IMG/VR virus record: IMGVR_UViG_3300043172_000799 | Location: 28,944-92,943 of that record | Strand: one strand, 5' to 3' | DNA: 64,000 bases | Origin: a virus | In this document: in pieces, positions 16,037-44,987 of the stretch | How positions within the stretch are numbered: position 1 is the stretch's first letter | Layout of the letters: each line of letters opens with the position of its first letter | Position numbers and translations under genes: made by a program | The notes under the pieces: generated by a model | Told to the model about the DNA's origin: nothing | What the model saw: only the letters and a program-made list of their open reading frames with translations | Databases searched by the model: none

Positions 16037-16174
16037 ATGGAAGATTATAAAGAATGGGGGTTTGGTAGAGCAATGACTTACGTTGGATATGATGAAAGAG
16101 AATACAGTAAATGGAATGAAGGTACTGGCTCTAAGCTATGGATAAATAGAGAGAAGTTTAACCCTATAATCTAA
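16037..16174 (+). CDS. Small hypothetical protein
   Basis: A 45-residue Trp/Tyr-rich peptide (MEDYKEWGFGRAMTYVGYDE). AAGGAGA precedes the ATG. It is the last gene before the packaging region. Function unknown. Confidence 0.5.
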   Translation: MEDYKEWGFGRAMTYVGYDEREYSKWNEGTGSKLWINREKFNPII

Positions 16175-16179
16175 CTATA

Positions 16180-16250
16180 CACTTGTGTGCCCCATACTCA
16201 AACTATATGATATAATAAATTATATAGTTTGAACAGGAGGCACACAAGTG
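16180..16250 (+). promoter_or_regulatory. Nested perfect inverted repeat covering the terS start
   Basis: Outer arms CACTTGTGTGCC (16180-16191) and GGCACACAAGTG (16239-16250) pair over 12 bp; inner arms CAAACTATAT (16199-16208) and ATATAGTTTG (16222-16231) pair over 10 bp. The AGGAGG ribosome site overlaps the outer right arm, whose last three bases are the GTG start of terS. A TATAAT is in the inner loop. As RNA this would hide the start site; as DNA it could be a terminase-recognition or operator site. Confidence 0.8.
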
Positions 16251-17006
16251 TCAGAAGAAGATAATAAAGAAGAACTCACCACAAATCAAAAGAAATCTCA
16301 GGCTCAGCGAAAGAGATGGGATAGGAATGCAGAGATAACCACTGGGAAACACTCTGATAGAAGATCCAAACGATATGACTTCAAATGTTTTGAGGGAATT
16401 AGATTATCTGCCATGCAAAAAGAGTTTGTGGTGCGGTTCATGGACCCCCCATATAATGGAATTAGAAAGAATCGCTACAAAGCATATTTGGAAGCAGGAT
16501 TTACAGCATCTAATGATAATAGCTTAAAAGCAAATTGTACGGCAGCCTTAAATAAAAGCAATATCAAGGAAGCAATCCTAGCATATCAGAAGTACGCACT
16601 TCAAAATTTAAAAATAGAAGCAACCTCACAAAACGTTGATGCCCTGCGATTAAGAGCCACATATTCAGTGTCTGACTTTTATGAGACAGATGGCACTCCA
16701 AAACCTTTAGATAAAATATCTCCAGAAATGCTAGTCGTTATAGATGATATAGATGTTGATTGGAAATTATCTAATAAGGCTGAAAAGAAAATAATTAAAT
16801 ACACGCTGGCTAATCGTGAGAAAGCTATGAAGTCTTTACAAGAAATACTAGGTATTATGAAGACTATGGAGACTATGGAGATCAGTGTGCCGGTTAGTAG
16901 TGGCAAGAATGCTATTGAAAATATAGGACAGAACAAGGATGCAGGTCCTAGAATCTCCATGAATATCACAGTAGGCAATCCTGCGAAGAAGGATTCTGAT
17001 GGCTAA
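16248..17006 (+). CDS. terS: Terminase small subunit
   Basis: A 252-residue protein that would recognise phage DNA and load the large terminase. Residues about 50-110 read like the Terminase_2-type DNA-binding region: SAMQKEFVVRFM, an R-Y-K-A-Y-x-x-AGF turn, then a helix ending KEAILAYQK. The C-terminal half is helical, with a Lys/Met-rich segment. It starts with GTG inside the inverted repeat and overlaps terL by 8 bases. The call rests on motif and position directly before the large subunit. Confidence 0.8.
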   Translation: MSEEDNKEELTTNQKKSQAQRKRWDRNAEITTGKHSDRRSKRYDFKCFEGIRLSAMQKEFVVRFMDPPYNGIRKNRYKAYLEAGFTASNDNSLKANCTAALNKSNIKEAILAYQKYALQNLKIEATSQNVDALRLRATYSVSDFYETDGTPKPLDKISPEMLVVIDDIDVDWKLSNKAEKKIIKYTLANREKAMKSLQEILGIMKTMETMEISVPVSSGKNAIENIGQNKDAGPRISMNITVGNPAKKDSDG

Positions 17007-19695
17007 GAAAGATTTAAGGAAAGCAAATAATATTCAAGATGTCAACTTTGACTTTAATTTATCTGAGAAACAATATGAAGCATTAGTTTCAATTGCAACA
17101 GAATTATTTTTTGGTGGAGCAAAAGGAGCTGGCAAAGATCAGGCTTTAGATACATTATTTTTAACTCCAACTGGGTTTAAAAAAAATATAGAATTAAATG
17201 TCGGAGATAGAATATGTAACCCTGATGGATCAATATCTAAAATACTACAAACACATCCAATTGAGAAAAAGAAAAAATATGTTTTACATTTCCGAGATGG
17301 GAGAAAAGCAGAATGCGGTGCAGATCATATTTGGTATGGGGCAAGAAAACATAACAAGTATCAGAGTTCTTGGAACGAAACAGGATGCACAAAAACAGCT
17401 AAAGAGATATATGCAATAACTAAAAGAGAAAAATTGAAATCTAAAAGAGAATGGTTCCGAATACCATTACCAAATCCTGTTAAATTTGATAACATTTATC
17501 AAAATAACAGAACAATTGAACCTTATTTGTTGGGAGTACTACTTGGAGACGGTTGTATTACAGGAAATAACCAAACTAAAATTTCTACAGTAGATCAAGT
17601 GCATATGCTATCACAATTTTCTGAATATAACTTTAGAATTGTAGACTTCTCTAAATATAATCTTGAAAAAAACAAAAACTTATTTGATTTATTTTTTACT
17701 GGGACACAGTGGAAAACTTTAGATAAGAATCTCAATAAATTAGGATTATTAGGAACCAGAAGTGCTACTAAGTTTATTCCAGAAGAATATAAAATTGCAC
17801 CCAAAGAAGTCAGGTTAGCTGTGTTACAAGGATTATTAGATACGGATGGAAGTGTAGATTGTAGTACTAGAAATGTAAGATACAGTTCTACATCCTTTCA
17901 ATTAGCAGAAGATGTTGCTTGGTTGGCTAGAAGTTTAGGCTTTTACGCTTCTGTACAAATAAAAAAAGCAAGAGATAAAGTAGAAAAAGATGGCACAATA
18001 TACCATTGCAAAGAAGGAAGAATAGTTTTTATACGAACATATAATGATTCACAATTATTCAGACTGGAAAGACATAAAGACAAAGTAAAATCTGGAGTAG
18101 TAAGACCATTAGGATTATCCGTTGTAGATGTTACAATAGAAGAAGAAGTTGAGATGAGATGTATTTCAGTAGACAATCCCAACGGTTTGTACATCACTGA
18201 AGAGTTCATAGTTACACATAATTCACATCTTATCAGATATGCTTCTATATTATATTGTCTGGCAGTACCAGGACTTCAGGTATACCTATTTAGACGAACC
18301 AGTAAACAAGTTAGATCTAACCATCTATATGGATCTACTGGATATCTTAGTGTGCTCAAGCCATTTATAGATGCCGGAGTTGTAGATATAAATCAATCAG
18401 ATAATAGAATAGACGTTTTTCATGAGGGAAAAGCAACATCTTCTATATTTCTCAGGCATCTGCAACATGAATCAGATGTTGAGATATATAGGGGCTGTGA
18501 AATCCATTTTTTAATAATGGATGAGCTTACACATTTTACTTCTTATCAGTATAAGACTCTTAGAAGTTGTGTACGTTTAGGTTTGAAGATTGACTATACA
18601 GAATTACAGAAAATGTATCCTTTTATGGTAGAAGGATTTTTTCCGAGGATATTGTGTGCATCAAATCCAGGATCTGCTGGACATTCATGGGTTAAAGCAA
18701 GTTGGATTGATAGACTTGTTCCAAATGTTATAGAGAGGATGCCTGACGAGGACGGAGGCATGTTACGGCAGTTCATCCCTGCTAAACTTGAAGACAATTA
18801 CCATCTTATGGAAAGTGATCCATCATATAAGGCAAAACTTATAGGTGTAGGTGGAGATGCTTCTAAGGCTATGCTCGATGGAAATTGGGAGATTGCAAGT
18901 GGATCTGCATTGGCAGATTGTTGGGATAAACGGTTTAACGTGATGCCACCATTTGATATACCTTCAAGTTGGGTAATAGATAGAGGTTTTGACTGGGGAT
19001 CAGCCAAACCTTTCGCTTGCTGTTATTTCGCTGAAGCATCAGGATCTACTGCTACTCTTCATAATGGTAAGACATTCACTCCACCAGAGGGGACAATATT
19101 TATGATTGGGGAACTGTATGGAAACAATCCGGCAGATTCAGACCCAGACACGGGAGGCAAGTTATCTGCCAGACAGATAGGAGCTAGGATAAAAGAATAT
19201 GAGGGATCTGTAGAATGGGGGCATAGAGTAAGGGCAGGAGCAGGAGATGGTCAGATATTTGAGGCAAATAGAGCAGGAACAGAGGAATGCATAAATGATA
19301 ATCTACTGAAAGGATATAATCTGGAAATAGTAGAAGGTGATCATGCTTCTTACATTAACCAATATACTGAGGAATTGTTCACAAGAGCAGATAAATCAAA
19401 AGGATCTCGCAAAAAAGGATTGGAGCTTTTACGCTCTTATCTAATAGATGCTCACTGGCAAGAAATAATTAGTGATACTCCTGAGAAGAATGAGTTTATA
19501 CCACCGGAGGAAGCAGGATTGGTATTTTTTGAAAATTGCAAGAATGCTATAAGAACTCTTCCTACTATTCCAAGAGATGAGCATGATCCAGAAGATGTGA
19601 ATACAGAAGCACCCGATCATATATATGATGTTGTTAGATACCGTCTGGCATCTAATAGACCAAAATTTACAAGGCTAACCCTATTAGGGGTGTAG
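16999..19695 (+). CDS. terL: Terminase large subunit interrupted by an intein
   Basis: An 898-residue precursor; removing a 362-residue intein leaves a 536-residue TerL, a normal size. It pumps DNA into the prohead (ATPase) and cuts it (RNase H-like nuclease). The Walker A motif GGAKGAGK is split from its Ser (S409) by the intein; Walker B is HFLIMDEL. The nuclease part has DRGFDWG, AGAGDGQIF and a late DHIYDVVRYRL acidic segment. Splicing must occur to rebuild the ATP site, so the intein gates packaging. Confidence 0.9.
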   Translation: MAKKDLRKANNIQDVNFDFNLSEKQYEALVSIATELFFGGAKGAGKDQALDTLFLTPTGFKKNIELNVGDRICNPDGSISKILQTHPIEKKKKYVLHFRDGRKAECGADHIWYGARKHNKYQSSWNETGCTKTAKEIYAITKREKLKSKREWFRIPLPNPVKFDNIYQNNRTIEPYLLGVLLGDGCITGNNQTKISTVDQVHMLSQFSEYNFRIVDFSKYNLEKNKNLFDLFFTGTQWKTLDKNLNKLGLLGTRSATKFIPEEYKIAPKEVRLAVLQGLLDTDGSVDCSTRNVRYSSTSFQLAEDVAWLARSLGFYASVQIKKARDKVEKDGTIYHCKEGRIVFIRTYNDSQLFRLERHKDKVKSGVVRPLGLSVVDVTIEEEVEMRCISVDNPNGLYITEEFIVTHNSHLIRYASILYCLAVPGLQVYLFRRTSKQVRSNHLYGSTGYLSVLKPFIDAGVVDINQSDNRIDVFHEGKATSSIFLRHLQHESDVEIYRGCEIHFLIMDELTHFTSYQYKTLRSCVRLGLKIDYTELQKMYPFMVEGFFPRILCASNPGSAGHSWVKASWIDRLVPNVIERMPDEDGGMLRQFIPAKLEDNYHLMESDPSYKAKLIGVGGDASKAMLDGNWEIASGSALADCWDKRFNVMPPFDIPSSWVIDRGFDWGSAKPFACCYFAEASGSTATLHNGKTFTPPEGTIFMIGELYGNNPADSDPDTGGKLSARQIGARIKEYEGSVEWGHRVRAGAGDGQIFEANRAGTEECINDNLLKGYNLEIVEGDHASYINQYTEELFTRADKSKGSRKKGLELLRSYLIDAHWQEIISDTPEKNEFIPPEEAGLVFFENCKNAIRTLPTIPRDEHDPEDVNTEAPDHIYDVVRYRLASNRPKFTRLTLLGV
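17137..18222 (+). other. Class 3-type intein with LAGLIDADG endonuclease
   Basis: Residues 47-408 of the precursor. The first residue is Asp, not Cys, Ser or Ala. W112 in ADHIW, C388 in RCISVD and T406 in VTHN form the W-C-T set that defines class 3 inteins, which use the internal Cys as first nucleophile. The end is His-Asn followed by extein Ser409. Two dodecapeptide motifs (LLGVLLGDG at about 177-185, LQGLLDTDG at about 276-284) mark a LAGLIDADG homing endonuclease. Confidence 0.85.
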
Positions 19696-25895: not shown

Positions 25896-27239
25896 GTGGG
25901 CAATGTGTTGACAAAGCTGATACAGATAATACCAGATGATGATATTAATGGTACGTATAAAATTATACGTGATTGGATGTACCATAGTACATCACTTGCA
26001 AATCTTATTATGACTGAGACATATGTAATAACACAAAGAGCAAGAGCCTTGTGCACTGCTCAGCCTGAATTAGATTATTTTCAGGCTGTTGCAAAAATGA
26101 AGGTTGAACGTGTTGGAAGTTATATTGGTAAAGTCACAGAAAAGACAATAGGTAGTAGTTTTGGGTATTGTTTATCTAAATCCCCTAATTATGCAGAAAA
26201 TATTCCAGGGGCTATTCGTACCAAAATAGATAAGGTGGTTGGACAACACTTTCAAGCAGATGTAAAAACCAATGGATTGCTGAAGGGAAATTGTTCTCTT
26301 AGATCTTACAGCCGTAAAAACATGGCTGTATATCTACCCAGTAGTAAGGGTGCTTCTAAGTTTACTTGTGAGGATGGTAACTACTATTTTAGTACCATTA
26401 ACAAATTGCGATTTAAAGTATTTTTAGGTAGGGACAATAGCAAAAACAAATTAGCTATTGACAGGATTATTTCTGGTGAGTATAAAATGCCTGATGTATC
26501 CATAAAGATTAAGGATAATAAAATATTTGTATTGGCACCTATAACAATTGAAGTAACAGATTTGGGATTAGACCCAGAGCTATCAGTTGGTGTAGACTTA
26601 GGAATTACTATTCCTGCGGTGTGTGCATTGTCCACTGGATTAGATAGAGCATTTATAGGTAATGGCACTGAGATAGTCAACTACCGTTTTTCTATGCGAA
26701 GAAAGAGAAAAAACTTACAGAAGAGTTTAACATTGTCTACAGGAGGAAGAGGAAGAGGAAAAAAACTAAAAGCATTAGAAAGGATAAGTAGTACTGAAAG
26801 TAATTGGATAAAGACTAAAAATCATTTAATTTCTAAAAAAATTATTGATTTTGCATTGACAAACGGAGCAGGAACTGTTAAGCTTGAATTATTAGAAGGG
26901 TTCACCAAAGAACATTCTTCCAACATTGTGCTAAAAGATTGGACGTATTATCAGTTAGGAGAGATGATACAGTACAAAGCAAAAATAGCTGGAATTGTAG
27001 TAGTACGGATAGATCCTTATCACACTTCACAGACATGCAACGTGTGTGGACATTCTACTAAAGAGAACAGACCTAAAGGTACAAAAGGTCAAGCATACTT
27101 TAAATGTGTGTCTTGTGGGCATAAAACCAACGCAGACCTTAATGCTGCACGGAATATTGCAAAATCGACAAAGATAGTAACTAAGAAGAAGGAATGCCAG
27201 TACCACAAATTGAAAAGTAACTTAATAGAAGTATCTTAA
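25896..27239 (+). CDS. cas12f: Miniature Cas12f-like CRISPR effector nuclease
   Basis: A 447-residue RNA-guided DNA nuclease candidate. The RuvC residues are D234 (VGVDLGI), E331 (VKLELLEG) and D414 (TNADLNAARNIA). A zinc ribbon, C381/C384 and C404/C407, sits between the last two. Parts read like the small Cas12f1 of Acidibacillus as I remember it: DRIISGEY, GGRGRGKK, NWTYY-like DWTYYQLGEM and IDPYHTSQTC. TnpB shares this fold; the repeat array, anti-repeat and lack of transposon ends favour Cas12f. GTG start after AAAGGAGA. Confidence 0.88.
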   Translation: MGNVLTKLIQIIPDDDINGTYKIIRDWMYHSTSLANLIMTETYVITQRARALCTAQPELDYFQAVAKMKVERVGSYIGKVTEKTIGSSFGYCLSKSPNYAENIPGAIRTKIDKVVGQHFQADVKTNGLLKGNCSLRSYSRKNMAVYLPSSKGASKFTCEDGNYYFSTINKLRFKVFLGRDNSKNKLAIDRIISGEYKMPDVSIKIKDNKIFVLAPITIEVTDLGLDPELSVGVDLGITIPAVCALSTGLDRAFIGNGTEIVNYRFSMRRKRKNLQKSLTLSTGGRGRGKKLKALERISSTESNWIKTKNHLISKKIIDFALTNGAGTVKLELLEGFTKEHSSNIVLKDWTYYQLGEMIQYKAKIAGIVVVRIDPYHTSQTCNVCGHSTKENRPKGTKGQAYFKCVSCGHKTNADLNAARNIAKSTKIVTKKKECQYHKLKSNLIEVS

Positions 27240-42767: not shown

Positions 42768-43178
42768 ATGGCTAAATTTAATTACCAAAAAACATTAGCT
42801 ACATCTCAGAGATTGATAAATAAGTTTGGTAATCCAATTACTATGACAAGAGCGTACAACGCCTCCCAATGGGATCGTGTCTATGATCCGGTAACAGAGT
42901 CATTTACTTGGACAAACACCACCACAGGAGCTTCACAGAGCACAGAACCGGCAGATGAGGTTACAATAGCAGATGGTGCATTAGTTGGAATTGATGAAGA
43001 GCTATTGGAAAATAGTTTAGTCAAAAAAAGTGATAGTAAGCTTTTGGTTGTGGGGATTGACGAACCACAGGTTGGAGACACATTTATTGTTAATGGGAAA
43101 GTATACGCTTACATTGCTCACATATCTATTAATCCTGCTGGTGTGAATGTTTTATACAAAGTAGCTCTCCGAATTTAA
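42768..43178 (+). CDS. Head closure (stopper) protein candidate
   Basis: A 136-residue protein with INKFGNPITMTRAYN near the N-terminus, SDSKLLVVGIDEPQVGDTFI and a strand-rich C-terminus. This matches the general look of phage head-closure proteins (a small SH3-like barrel) placed between connector and tail completion genes. Confidence 0.65.
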   Translation: MAKFNYQKTLATSQRLINKFGNPITMTRAYNASQWDRVYDPVTESFTWTNTTTGASQSTEPADEVTIADGALVGIDEELLENSLVKKSDSKLLVVGIDEPQVGDTFIVNGKVYAYIAHISINPAGVNVLYKVALRI

Positions 43179-43196
43179 TTTTTATTAGTATAACAT

Positions 43197-43282
43197 AGCA
43201 GGGTAGAGAAGCGGTCATTCTCAGCGGTCTCATAAGTCGCCAGCCTTAACAGGCTTCGTCAGTTCGAATCTGACCCCTGCTA
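43197..43282 (+). tRNA. tRNA with CAU anticodon and long variable arm
   Basis: An 86-base cloverleaf: acceptor AGCAGGG/CCCTGCT (7 bp), D arm GAGA/TCTC, anticodon stem GCGGT/GTCGC with loop CTCATAA (anticodon CAT), variable arm of 17 bases with stem AGCCT/AGGCT, T arm GTCAG-TTCGAAT-CTGAC, discriminator A, no encoded CCA. CAU means Met or lysidine-type Ile; a long variable arm is normal only in Leu, Ser, Tyr and SeC tRNAs, so the identity is uncertain. Confidence 0.85.
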
Positions 43283-43296
43283 ATAATATTATAGAT

Positions 43297-43352
43297 CACC
43301 TTCTCCTTTGCAAAGGCTGGTGATTAGTAATAGTCATCAGAAAGAGAAGGTG
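43297..43352 (+). promoter_or_regulatory. Three-way-junction hairpin hiding an endonuclease ribosome site
   Basis: CACCTTCTC (43297-43305) pairs with GAGAAGGTG (43344-43352), which contains the ribosome site of the 43361 gene. Inside are a CCTTTGCAAAGG palindrome and a CTGGTGAT/GTCATCAG hairpin. Confidence 0.7.
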
Positions 43353-43360
43353 GTTTTAAT

Positions 43361-44473
43361 ATGAGTAAGTATTCAAAGTATTTAATAGCTGGTATGGTGT
43401 TTAATGGCTGGGAAGTCATTAAACCTGACGTAGAAAGTAATGAAGGAAAACCGTCTTGTAGATGGTCATACAGGTGTAAATGTACAGATTGTGGTTTAGA
43501 GAAAGGGATTGATAAGAACAGATTGGCTTCTTTGAGTATAGGGCTTTGTGATCATAAGGGACAAAAGCAACATCCAAAATATTTAGAAAAGGGAACCACA
43601 TTTTCCGGCTGGGAAGTCGTAGAACCAGAAGAATCAAAGAACATCAGAGTTAAGCCTTCCGAATGGTTTTACAAATGTGTATGTCCTGTATGTGAAAATG
43701 AAAAACTTGTTAAAAGAACAACTTTACTTATTGGAGGTATAAACCCCTGTTCTCATGATGTTGTAAGAAACAAAAAGGGACGTACTTGCACAATGTGTGA
43801 TCAATTTTTATCATGGGATTCTTTTGGTGAAAAAGAAGATGGTTTTAACAGAAAAAATCATTGGTGTATTGGATGCACAAGAAAAAAGAGCACCCTATAT
43901 TATCATTCTGTAGAAAAGCTTGATATGCAAAATAATCCAGAAAAATATAGAGAAATAAATAAGGCTAAATATCAGAAGGATAAGGAGAATATCCAGAAAA
44001 AACATTCAGAATATTACTTTAGGACAAAGGAATCCCGTAGAGAGCATAAACGTAACTATAGAAAAAATAGATTAGAAAATGATTCCGCATTTAAACTGGA
44101 GTCTACTCTTCGCAATAGTATTTCCAGAGCTTTAAAAGCTTCTACATCTAAAAAGTTTTTATGCTCTAATAAAATGTTGGGTTGTACTCCGAAAGAATGT
44201 GTAGATTACCTTAATGATAATGAGTTTGGATATAACTTTAAAGATCATGGTATGTTTTCCTTGCATGTAGACCATATTATTCCATGTGCCTTTTTCAACT
44301 TGGATAATGCACTAGAACAATTGATTTGTTTCAATTATAACAACTTAAGGTTGTACCCAGCTAAGGAAAATTGGGCAAAACATGCCCACATAGAAGATAT
44401 GTGTCAGGATCTTTACCTTGAAATACAAAATGATGTCTTAAAAAAATATCCAGAATTGGAAGAAGGAATATAG
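43361..44473 (+). CDS. HNH homing endonuclease with duplicated N-terminal modules
   Basis: A 370-residue protein. Two N-terminal modules share G-x-x-F-x-G-WEV-x-x-P and Cys pairs (FNGWEVIKPD...CKCTDC; FSGWEVVEPE...CVCPVC), then a third zinc ribbon (CTMCDQFLSWDSFGEK). After a charged linker comes the HNH core, LHVDHIIPCAFFNLD...CFNYNNLRLYPAKEN. It lies directly after the tRNA and breaks the order of connector genes. Translation is probably restrained by the upstream junction. Confidence 0.85.
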   Translation: MSKYSKYLIAGMVFNGWEVIKPDVESNEGKPSCRWSYRCKCTDCGLEKGIDKNRLASLSIGLCDHKGQKQHPKYLEKGTTFSGWEVVEPEESKNIRVKPSEWFYKCVCPVCENEKLVKRTTLLIGGINPCSHDVVRNKKGRTCTMCDQFLSWDSFGEKEDGFNRKNHWCIGCTRKKSTLYYHSVEKLDMQNNPEKYREINKAKYQKDKENIQKKHSEYYFRTKESRREHKRNYRKNRLENDSAFKLESTLRNSISRALKASTSKKFLCSNKMLGCTPKECVDYLNDNEFGYNFKDHGMFSLHVDHIIPCAFFNLDNALEQLICFNYNNLRLYPAKENWAKHAHIEDMCQDLYLEIQNDVLKKYPELEEGI

Positions 44474-44474
44474 C

Positions 44475-44987
44475 ATGTCTAATAATAAAGATTTCATAAC
44501 TGATATTGCTAAGTTCAAAATAAAATCTGAAAACACTATAGATGATACAAGAAAATTCTTAGCTTTTGAGCTGTTTTCCCGTGTAGTTGATAGAACTCCC
44601 GTCGGTTTCCTATATGAACCAACATCAGGTAATACTAAGTTCAATTGGACCTGCACCATTAACACTCTACCAACCTCCATATTAAAGGGGGTCGATAAAA
44701 AGGGAAATGTAACTAAAGCTAGAATGGAAAAAGTCCTAGACAGAGTAAAATCTGATGATATAATATTTTTTTCCAACTCCGTAAGTCACATATTTCAGAT
44801 TGAAGATGGCCTATATCCTAAATCTCCTAGTGTAGGATCTTGGAATAAGCAGACAAAATCATACGAGATAAGAAGTTCTGGAGGCTTTTCCAAGCAAGCA
44901 CCAGCCGGAATGGTAAAATTAACACTACTTGCCTTTTCTAGTGTATCTAAAAATGCCATACGAAAGGCACAACGCCAAAATAGGTAG
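44475..44987 (+). CDS. Tail completion/neck protein (HK97 gp10-like)
   Basis: A 170-residue basic protein. The text FLAFELFSRVVDRTPVGF, then NTKFNWTCTINTLPTS, is the gp10-like pattern: a helix with R-T-P-V, then N-x-x-x-N-W. These proteins link head and tail. It begins one base after the stop of the endonuclease, which sits in the middle of the connector genes. Confidence 0.75.
   Translation: MSNNKDFITDIAKFKIKSENTIDDTRKFLAFELFSRVVDRTPVGFLYEPTSGNTKFNWTCTINTLPTSILKGVDKKGNVTKARMEKVLDRVKSDDIIFFSNSVSHIFQIEDGLYPKSPSVGSWNKQTKSYEIRSSGGFSKQAPAGMVKLTLLAFSSVSKNAIRKAQRQNR

Follow-up and report, generated by a model that had tools for sequence, protein, structure and literature searches.

Class II tRNAs, with their long variable arm, are in textbook classification those for leucine, serine, tyrosine and selenocysteine, and initiator tRNAs belong to class I. 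Formylation depends on an open 1-72 pair together with G2-C71, C3-G70 and A11-U24, and the P site on three G-C pairs of the anticodon stem (PMC7949028, PMC9976931). VapC toxins cleave tRNA-fMet within the anticodon stem-loop, so a phage may have reason to bring an initiator-like tRNA of its own. Escape from host anticodon nucleases has been proposed for phage tRNAs whose anticodon loops are altered, and phage T4 uses an RNA ligase to repair tRNA-Lys after its cleavage (PMC10264068). A published description of class II CAU or class II initiator tRNAs in phages was not found in the literature searched, most subscription papers lying outside that search.

We analysed a stretch of 64,000 nucleotides (the window; bases 28944-92943 within a virus record 168,384 bases long; 34% G+C) and found that it carries a complete class II tRNA(CAU) gene at 43197-43282 on the plus strand, here called the window tRNA. 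ARAGORN places a single tRNA in the window (43196-43283, anticodon CAT) and draws it as a class II cloverleaf, rather than with the normal variable loop or different anticodon that the original prediction had named as contrary outcomes. With the Rfam tRNA model RF00005, 43197-43282 reaches 44.6 bits where the gathering score is 29, and ARAGORN finds no tRNA in 30 windows of 64 kb simulated with matching dinucleotide composition. The fold has a z-score of −3.9, with none of 200 shuffles equally stable; the free-energy minimum is 4.5 kcal/mol below the cloverleaf and departs from it mainly by re-pairing the inner anticodon stem. Parsed into standard positions, the gene runs from position 1 to discriminator A73. 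The acceptor strands AGCAGGG (43197-43203) and CCCTGCT (43275-43282 with A73) form seven pairs, including A1-U72, G2-C71, C3-G70 and A4-U69. The D arm GAGA-AGCGGTCAT-TCTC (43206-43222) has four pairs with an initiator-type A11-U24, and the T arm GTCAG-TTCGAAT-CTGAC (43258-43274) has five. Five pairs also close the anticodon arm GCGGT-CTCATAA-GTCGC (43224-43240; CAT at 43231-43233), in which G29-C41 is followed by the inner wobbles G30-U40 and U31-G39. The variable region CAGCCTTAACAGGCTTC (43241-43257) spans 17 nt and folds into a 5-bp stem, AGCCT/AGGCT, between 43242-43246 and 43251-43255, with C48 at 43257. Conserved T-loop and anticodon-loop bases are intact, and U21 stands in place of A21. 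No CCA is encoded, so the 3′ CCA must come from host enzymes. The window tRNA is thus real and unusual, and the cloverleaf, 17-base variable arm with its 5-bp stem and two inner anticodon-stem G-U pairs of the original prediction all stand, with coordinates and pairing correct.

The window tRNA sits among late structural genes, between a head-closure gene of the Hc1 family (phrog_161; 42768-43178) and an HNH-type, homing endonuclease-like gene (43361-44473), which belongs to a set of about six related loci in the phage; a gene of the tail completion or Neck1 family (phrog_169; 44475-44987) follows downstream, and these three genes are on the plus strand. It had been described as standing alone next to a homing endonuclease. 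The neighbour is confirmed, and ARAGORN finds no second tRNA in the window, but four more (an initiator-type class I Met(CAU), Gln, Leu and Trp) lie near the far end of the same 168-kb record. Some phage homing endonucleases have hairpins that hide the ribosome-binding site, and a strong plus-strand hairpin at 43284-43362 (−31.8 kcal/mol, z −5.88), where it covers the probable ribosome-binding site of the HNH gene, resembles them. Hairpins just as striking cover start regions at window 16154-16262 (ORF at 16248, z −9.6) and at L004:11793-11886 (HNH-like ORF, z −3.5); the phage thus has such hairpins at start sites repeatedly. The same phage encodes a T4 Rnl1-type RNA ligase (L006:8718-9830), a PNKP (L006:10133-11014) and an Rnl2-type RNA ligase (L006:13938-14933), which from their sequences look like a tRNA-repair-type set. 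Elsewhere we observed a terminase ORF with a LAGLIDADG (intein-like) domain (window 16999-19695), a TnpB/Cas12f-like ORF (window 25896-27239) and a nicotinate phosphoribosyltransferase adjoining an NAD synthase (L008:2627-4679), a pair possibly serving NAD+ salvage or counter-defence.

To place the window tRNA we parsed about 1030 tRNAs, from ARAGORN output on viral and bacterial loci, into standard positions. Its body combines G2-C71, C3-G70, A11-U24, a weak A1-U72, A4-U69 and A73; a weak 1-72 pair together with G2-C71, C3-G70 and A11-U24 occurs in 0 of 608 non-CAU tRNAs compared. In bacterial CAU initiators A11-U24 accompanies G2-C71, C3-G70 and an open or weak 1-72: it is present in 17 of 19 bacterial CAU tRNAs with an initiator-type acceptor and in none of the 18 other bacterial CAU tRNAs, which have Y11-R24 throughout (18/18) and G1-C72 in 16. 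When the anticodon, D loop and variable arm are excluded, 28 of the 30 tRNAs nearest to the window tRNA among 856 others are CAU tRNAs; the nearest is L042, a viral class II initiator-like tRNA identical at 45 of 57 positions, and the E. coli initiator metZ matches at 40 of the 57. Position-specific models built without the group-defining acceptor pairs also rank the viral class II initiator-like model first (42.3 versus 33.4, with Leu at 29.3), and discrimination for the window tRNA is lost once the D stem is removed as well. Descent from a bacterial initiator tRNA-Met is therefore a well-supported reading of these sequences that draws largely on the acceptor and D stems. The window tRNA has nonetheless drifted from the canonical initiator. 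Its 1-72 pair is weak but closed (among bacterial initiators U1-A72 occurs in 2 of 18 and A1-U72 in 0 of 18), G30-U40 and U31-G39 replace two of the three G-C pairs (29-31/39-41) of the 3GC stem, and its 17-nt variable region with a 5-bp stem departs from the short variable loop of bacterial initiators. Given this drift, we can only infer a role in initiation.

Long-armed CAU tRNAs are not confined to this phage. We scanned viral contigs with two patterns that require CAU and a long gap to the T loop, and ARAGORN then called class II CAU tRNAs at 19 of 21 loci from the first scan and at least 104 among 120 listed loci from the second, giving at least 123 viral loci; the patterns fix parts of the D and T loops, so these proportions are biased. 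Applied to genomes from 84,980 species of bacteria and archaea, the first pattern gave class II CAU tRNAs at 9 of 45 loci. Among the matches listed, 55 of 104 distinct viral class II CAU tRNAs have an initiator-type acceptor, two of them (L224 and L225) being doubtful because the T arm is poorly paired. Other class II CAU tRNAs have bodies of elongator type, and a few have clearly leucine-type bodies, so the long arm has joined CAU in more than one background. We defined the viral class II CAU initiator-like group by a CAU anticodon, a variable region of at least 9 nt, a non-GC 1-72 pair, G2-C71 and C3-G70, all of which the window tRNA has. Among the matches listed, most of the group have a mismatch at 1-72, and 39 of 40 have G30-C40, the window tRNA with G30-U40 being the sole exception. 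U31-G39 is found in 21 of these 40 listed tRNAs compared with 0 of 18 bacterial initiators. Variable-arm stems average 4.1 bp across the group versus 2.9 in shuffled sequences, and their sequences vary among the matches listed. From its sequence, the window tRNA thus appears to be a divergent representative of the class II initiator-like CAU tRNAs, a group that recurs in phages.

In the cultured crAss-like phages PhiCrAssBcn22/23, an unannotated class II CAU tRNA belongs to an array that also includes Ile(UAU), Ile(GAU) and a class I CAU tRNA lacking initiator features; with these three present in PhiCrAssBcn22, the class II CAU tRNA is not needed there for AUA. A 735-kb uncultured phage has Ile(UAU) and a pair of class I initiator-like tRNAs beside its class II CAU tRNA. 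Three viral contigs (L083, L095 and L137) join tRNA-Leu bodies (A15-U48, A73 and a Leu-type arm) to a CAU anticodon, making these tRNAs real candidates for placing leucine at AUG. In one class II CAU subfamily (L046, L059, L062, L082, L085, L119, L120, L147 and L275-L280) the anticodon arm is nearly invariant, CCTGTCTCATAAGCACGG, and forces a bulge or mismatch of one base near position 42; its longer form CCTGTCTCATAAGCACGGAGTYCC occurs in 14 viral contigs. The 81-nt tRNA-Met genes of Streptomyces phages, which look class II by length, were rejected as support, their T arm pairing at only 2 of 5 positions. No exact match to a 31-base stretch of the window tRNA was found in viral contigs, blast against phages returned class I tRNA-Met and no class II relative, and relatives of the neighbouring genes, the HNH gene included, yielded no close one with the same tRNA. 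Annotation pipelines label such tRNAs tRNA-Met or, as in PhiCrAssBcn22/23, skip them, and the class is thereby hidden.

We favour, with modest confidence, a functional tRNA of initiator descent that accepts methionine, has a class II arm and would keep (f)Met-tRNA available during infection. Counting against this reading are the absent 3GC stem, the closed A-U pair at 1-72, the class I initiator-type tRNA already in the phage, a score below Leu with a model trained on bacterial initiators and the loss of model discrimination once the D stem is left out. The paired A1-U72 and the two wobbles could also describe an initiator-derived tRNA that closed 1-72, lost its 3GC stem and drifted to methionine elongation at AUG (22 per 1000 codons) or to dual use, as an un-formylated initiator tRNA is able to elongate and one tRNA may serve both initiation and elongation under partial formylation (PMC7949028). 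We consider such a shift unlikely: A11-U24, G2-C71 and C3-G70 are kept, whereas bacterial elongator CAU tRNAs have G1-C72 and Y11-R24, and A1-U72 or U1-A72 also occurs in some initiator-like viral relatives, with U1-A72 in bacterial initiators. It is less probable still, indeed quite improbable, that the gene is decaying or non-translational, whether a remnant brought along when the homing endonuclease inserted or an element of the late transcript that acts as decoy, scaffold or RNA-processing signal. Its isolation between late genes next to the HNH-type gene, the inner G-U pairs, U21 and the second initiator-type tRNA would suit that account, but all stems are fully paired, the conserved loop bases are retained, and among relatives the structure persists through changes of sequence.

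The charging and decoding ideas of the original prediction fare worse. As a lysidine target, the window tRNA would be an Ile2-like tRNA reading AUA once host TilS had modified C34, and its CAU with A37 and A38, the lack of an Ile(UAU) tRNA in the phage and the heavy use of AUA (33 per 1000 codons), the one fact favouring an Ile2 role, would fit. C4-G69 and C5-G68 guide E. coli TilS, however, and none of the Ile2-type body features is present: the window tRNA has A4-U69, G5-C68, A11-U24 and A1-U72, while E. coli ileX has the full Ile2 set. Among the 18 non-initiator bacterial CAU tRNAs, all differ from it in having Y11-R24, and 16 in having G1-C72. No TilS family match was found in the phage record, though a host enzyme could act, and we now regard the idea as disfavoured and very improbable. 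Least probable of all, and hardly to be expected, is charging through recognition of the long arm by LeuRS or SerRS, with leucine or serine inserted at AUG. Both enzymes largely ignore the anticodon (PMC9976931), A73 suits LeuRS, and in a first position-specific comparison the window tRNA scored 15.9 with the Leu model, above the 7.1 of a model trained on bacterial initiators. Leucine is nevertheless disfavoured by G15-C48, as A15-U48, an essential element of E. coli tRNA-Leu (PMC9976931), is present in 75 of 75 tRNA-Leu compared, and the Leu-bodied CAU tRNAs of other phages look quite different. Serine is disfavoured by A73, as position 73 is G or T in 42 of 44 tRNA-Ser and A in 2.

The favoured methionine-accepting tRNA would have arisen when an initiator tRNA-Met descendant gained a class II variable arm, or would have come from a phage lineage that already had one. 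Host MetRS most likely charges it with methionine through the CAU anticodon, as a tRNA-Val bearing CAU is charged by MetRS as well as tRNA-Met is (PMC9976931). Formylation may follow given G2-C71, C3-G70, A11-U24, A73 and the weak 1-72 pair, and because that pair is A1-U72 it may be weak. The tRNA could then supplement (f)Met-tRNA in late gene expression, with initiation less certain than for its relatives because 3GC pairs are lost. Host nucleases that cleave initiator tRNA may act poorly on it owing to its long arm and its phage-type U31-G39 anticodon stem, a possible escape that the tRNA-repair-type enzymes of the phage would suit. A broader proposal, that phages maintain distinct class II initiator tRNAs that keep or redirect initiation to phage mRNAs when the host initiator is cut or sequestered, is tentative and rather doubtful; here the long arm and U31-G39 stem would set the initiator tRNA of phages apart from that of the host. 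If class II initiator-like tRNAs do recur in phages, they would show that the initiation machinery tolerates a long arm, would offer a case in which to test why phages have tRNAs of their own, and would make the arm and the 31-39 pair a marker that discriminates host from phage.

Compared with known systems, the window tRNA shares with bacterial initiator tRNA-fMet (E. coli metZ) the CUCAUAA loop, G2-C71, C3-G70, A11-U24 and A73, and differs in its 17-nt rather than 5-nt variable region, A1-U72, A4-U69 and lack of the 3GC stem. Class I initiator-like tRNA-Met genes of phages (Vibrio phage phi-ST2, Sinorhizobium phage Phosso and L269-L274) have a near-identical D arm, GTAGAGAAG(C/T)GGTC, and those of phi-ST2, Phosso and L273 have the GTCTCATAA anticodon loop flank in common with it; unlike the window tRNA they have a short variable loop, and in several the 3′ acceptor strand is one base longer. 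This apparent extra (bulged) base occurs in L271, L273, phi-ST2 (L001:1503-1576) and Phosso (L002:1508-1584), and the fold shows it in L271, L273 and phi-ST2. With tRNA-Leu and tRNA-Ser the window tRNA has the long variable arm in common, without the A15-U48 of the former or the G73 of the latter and with A11-U24. Similar to the phage tRNAs proposed to evade nucleases (PMC10264068), it is a phage version of a tRNA that nucleases may target, and bases of its anticodon arm are changed; long-armed initiator-like tRNAs are not described in that work, and resistance of the window tRNA is putative. Without the open 1-72 and G30-C40 of most viral class II initiator-like tRNAs, it shares both the long arm and CAU with the viral class II CAU tRNAs, including those of PhiCrAssBcn22/23, about half of which have an initiator-type acceptor.
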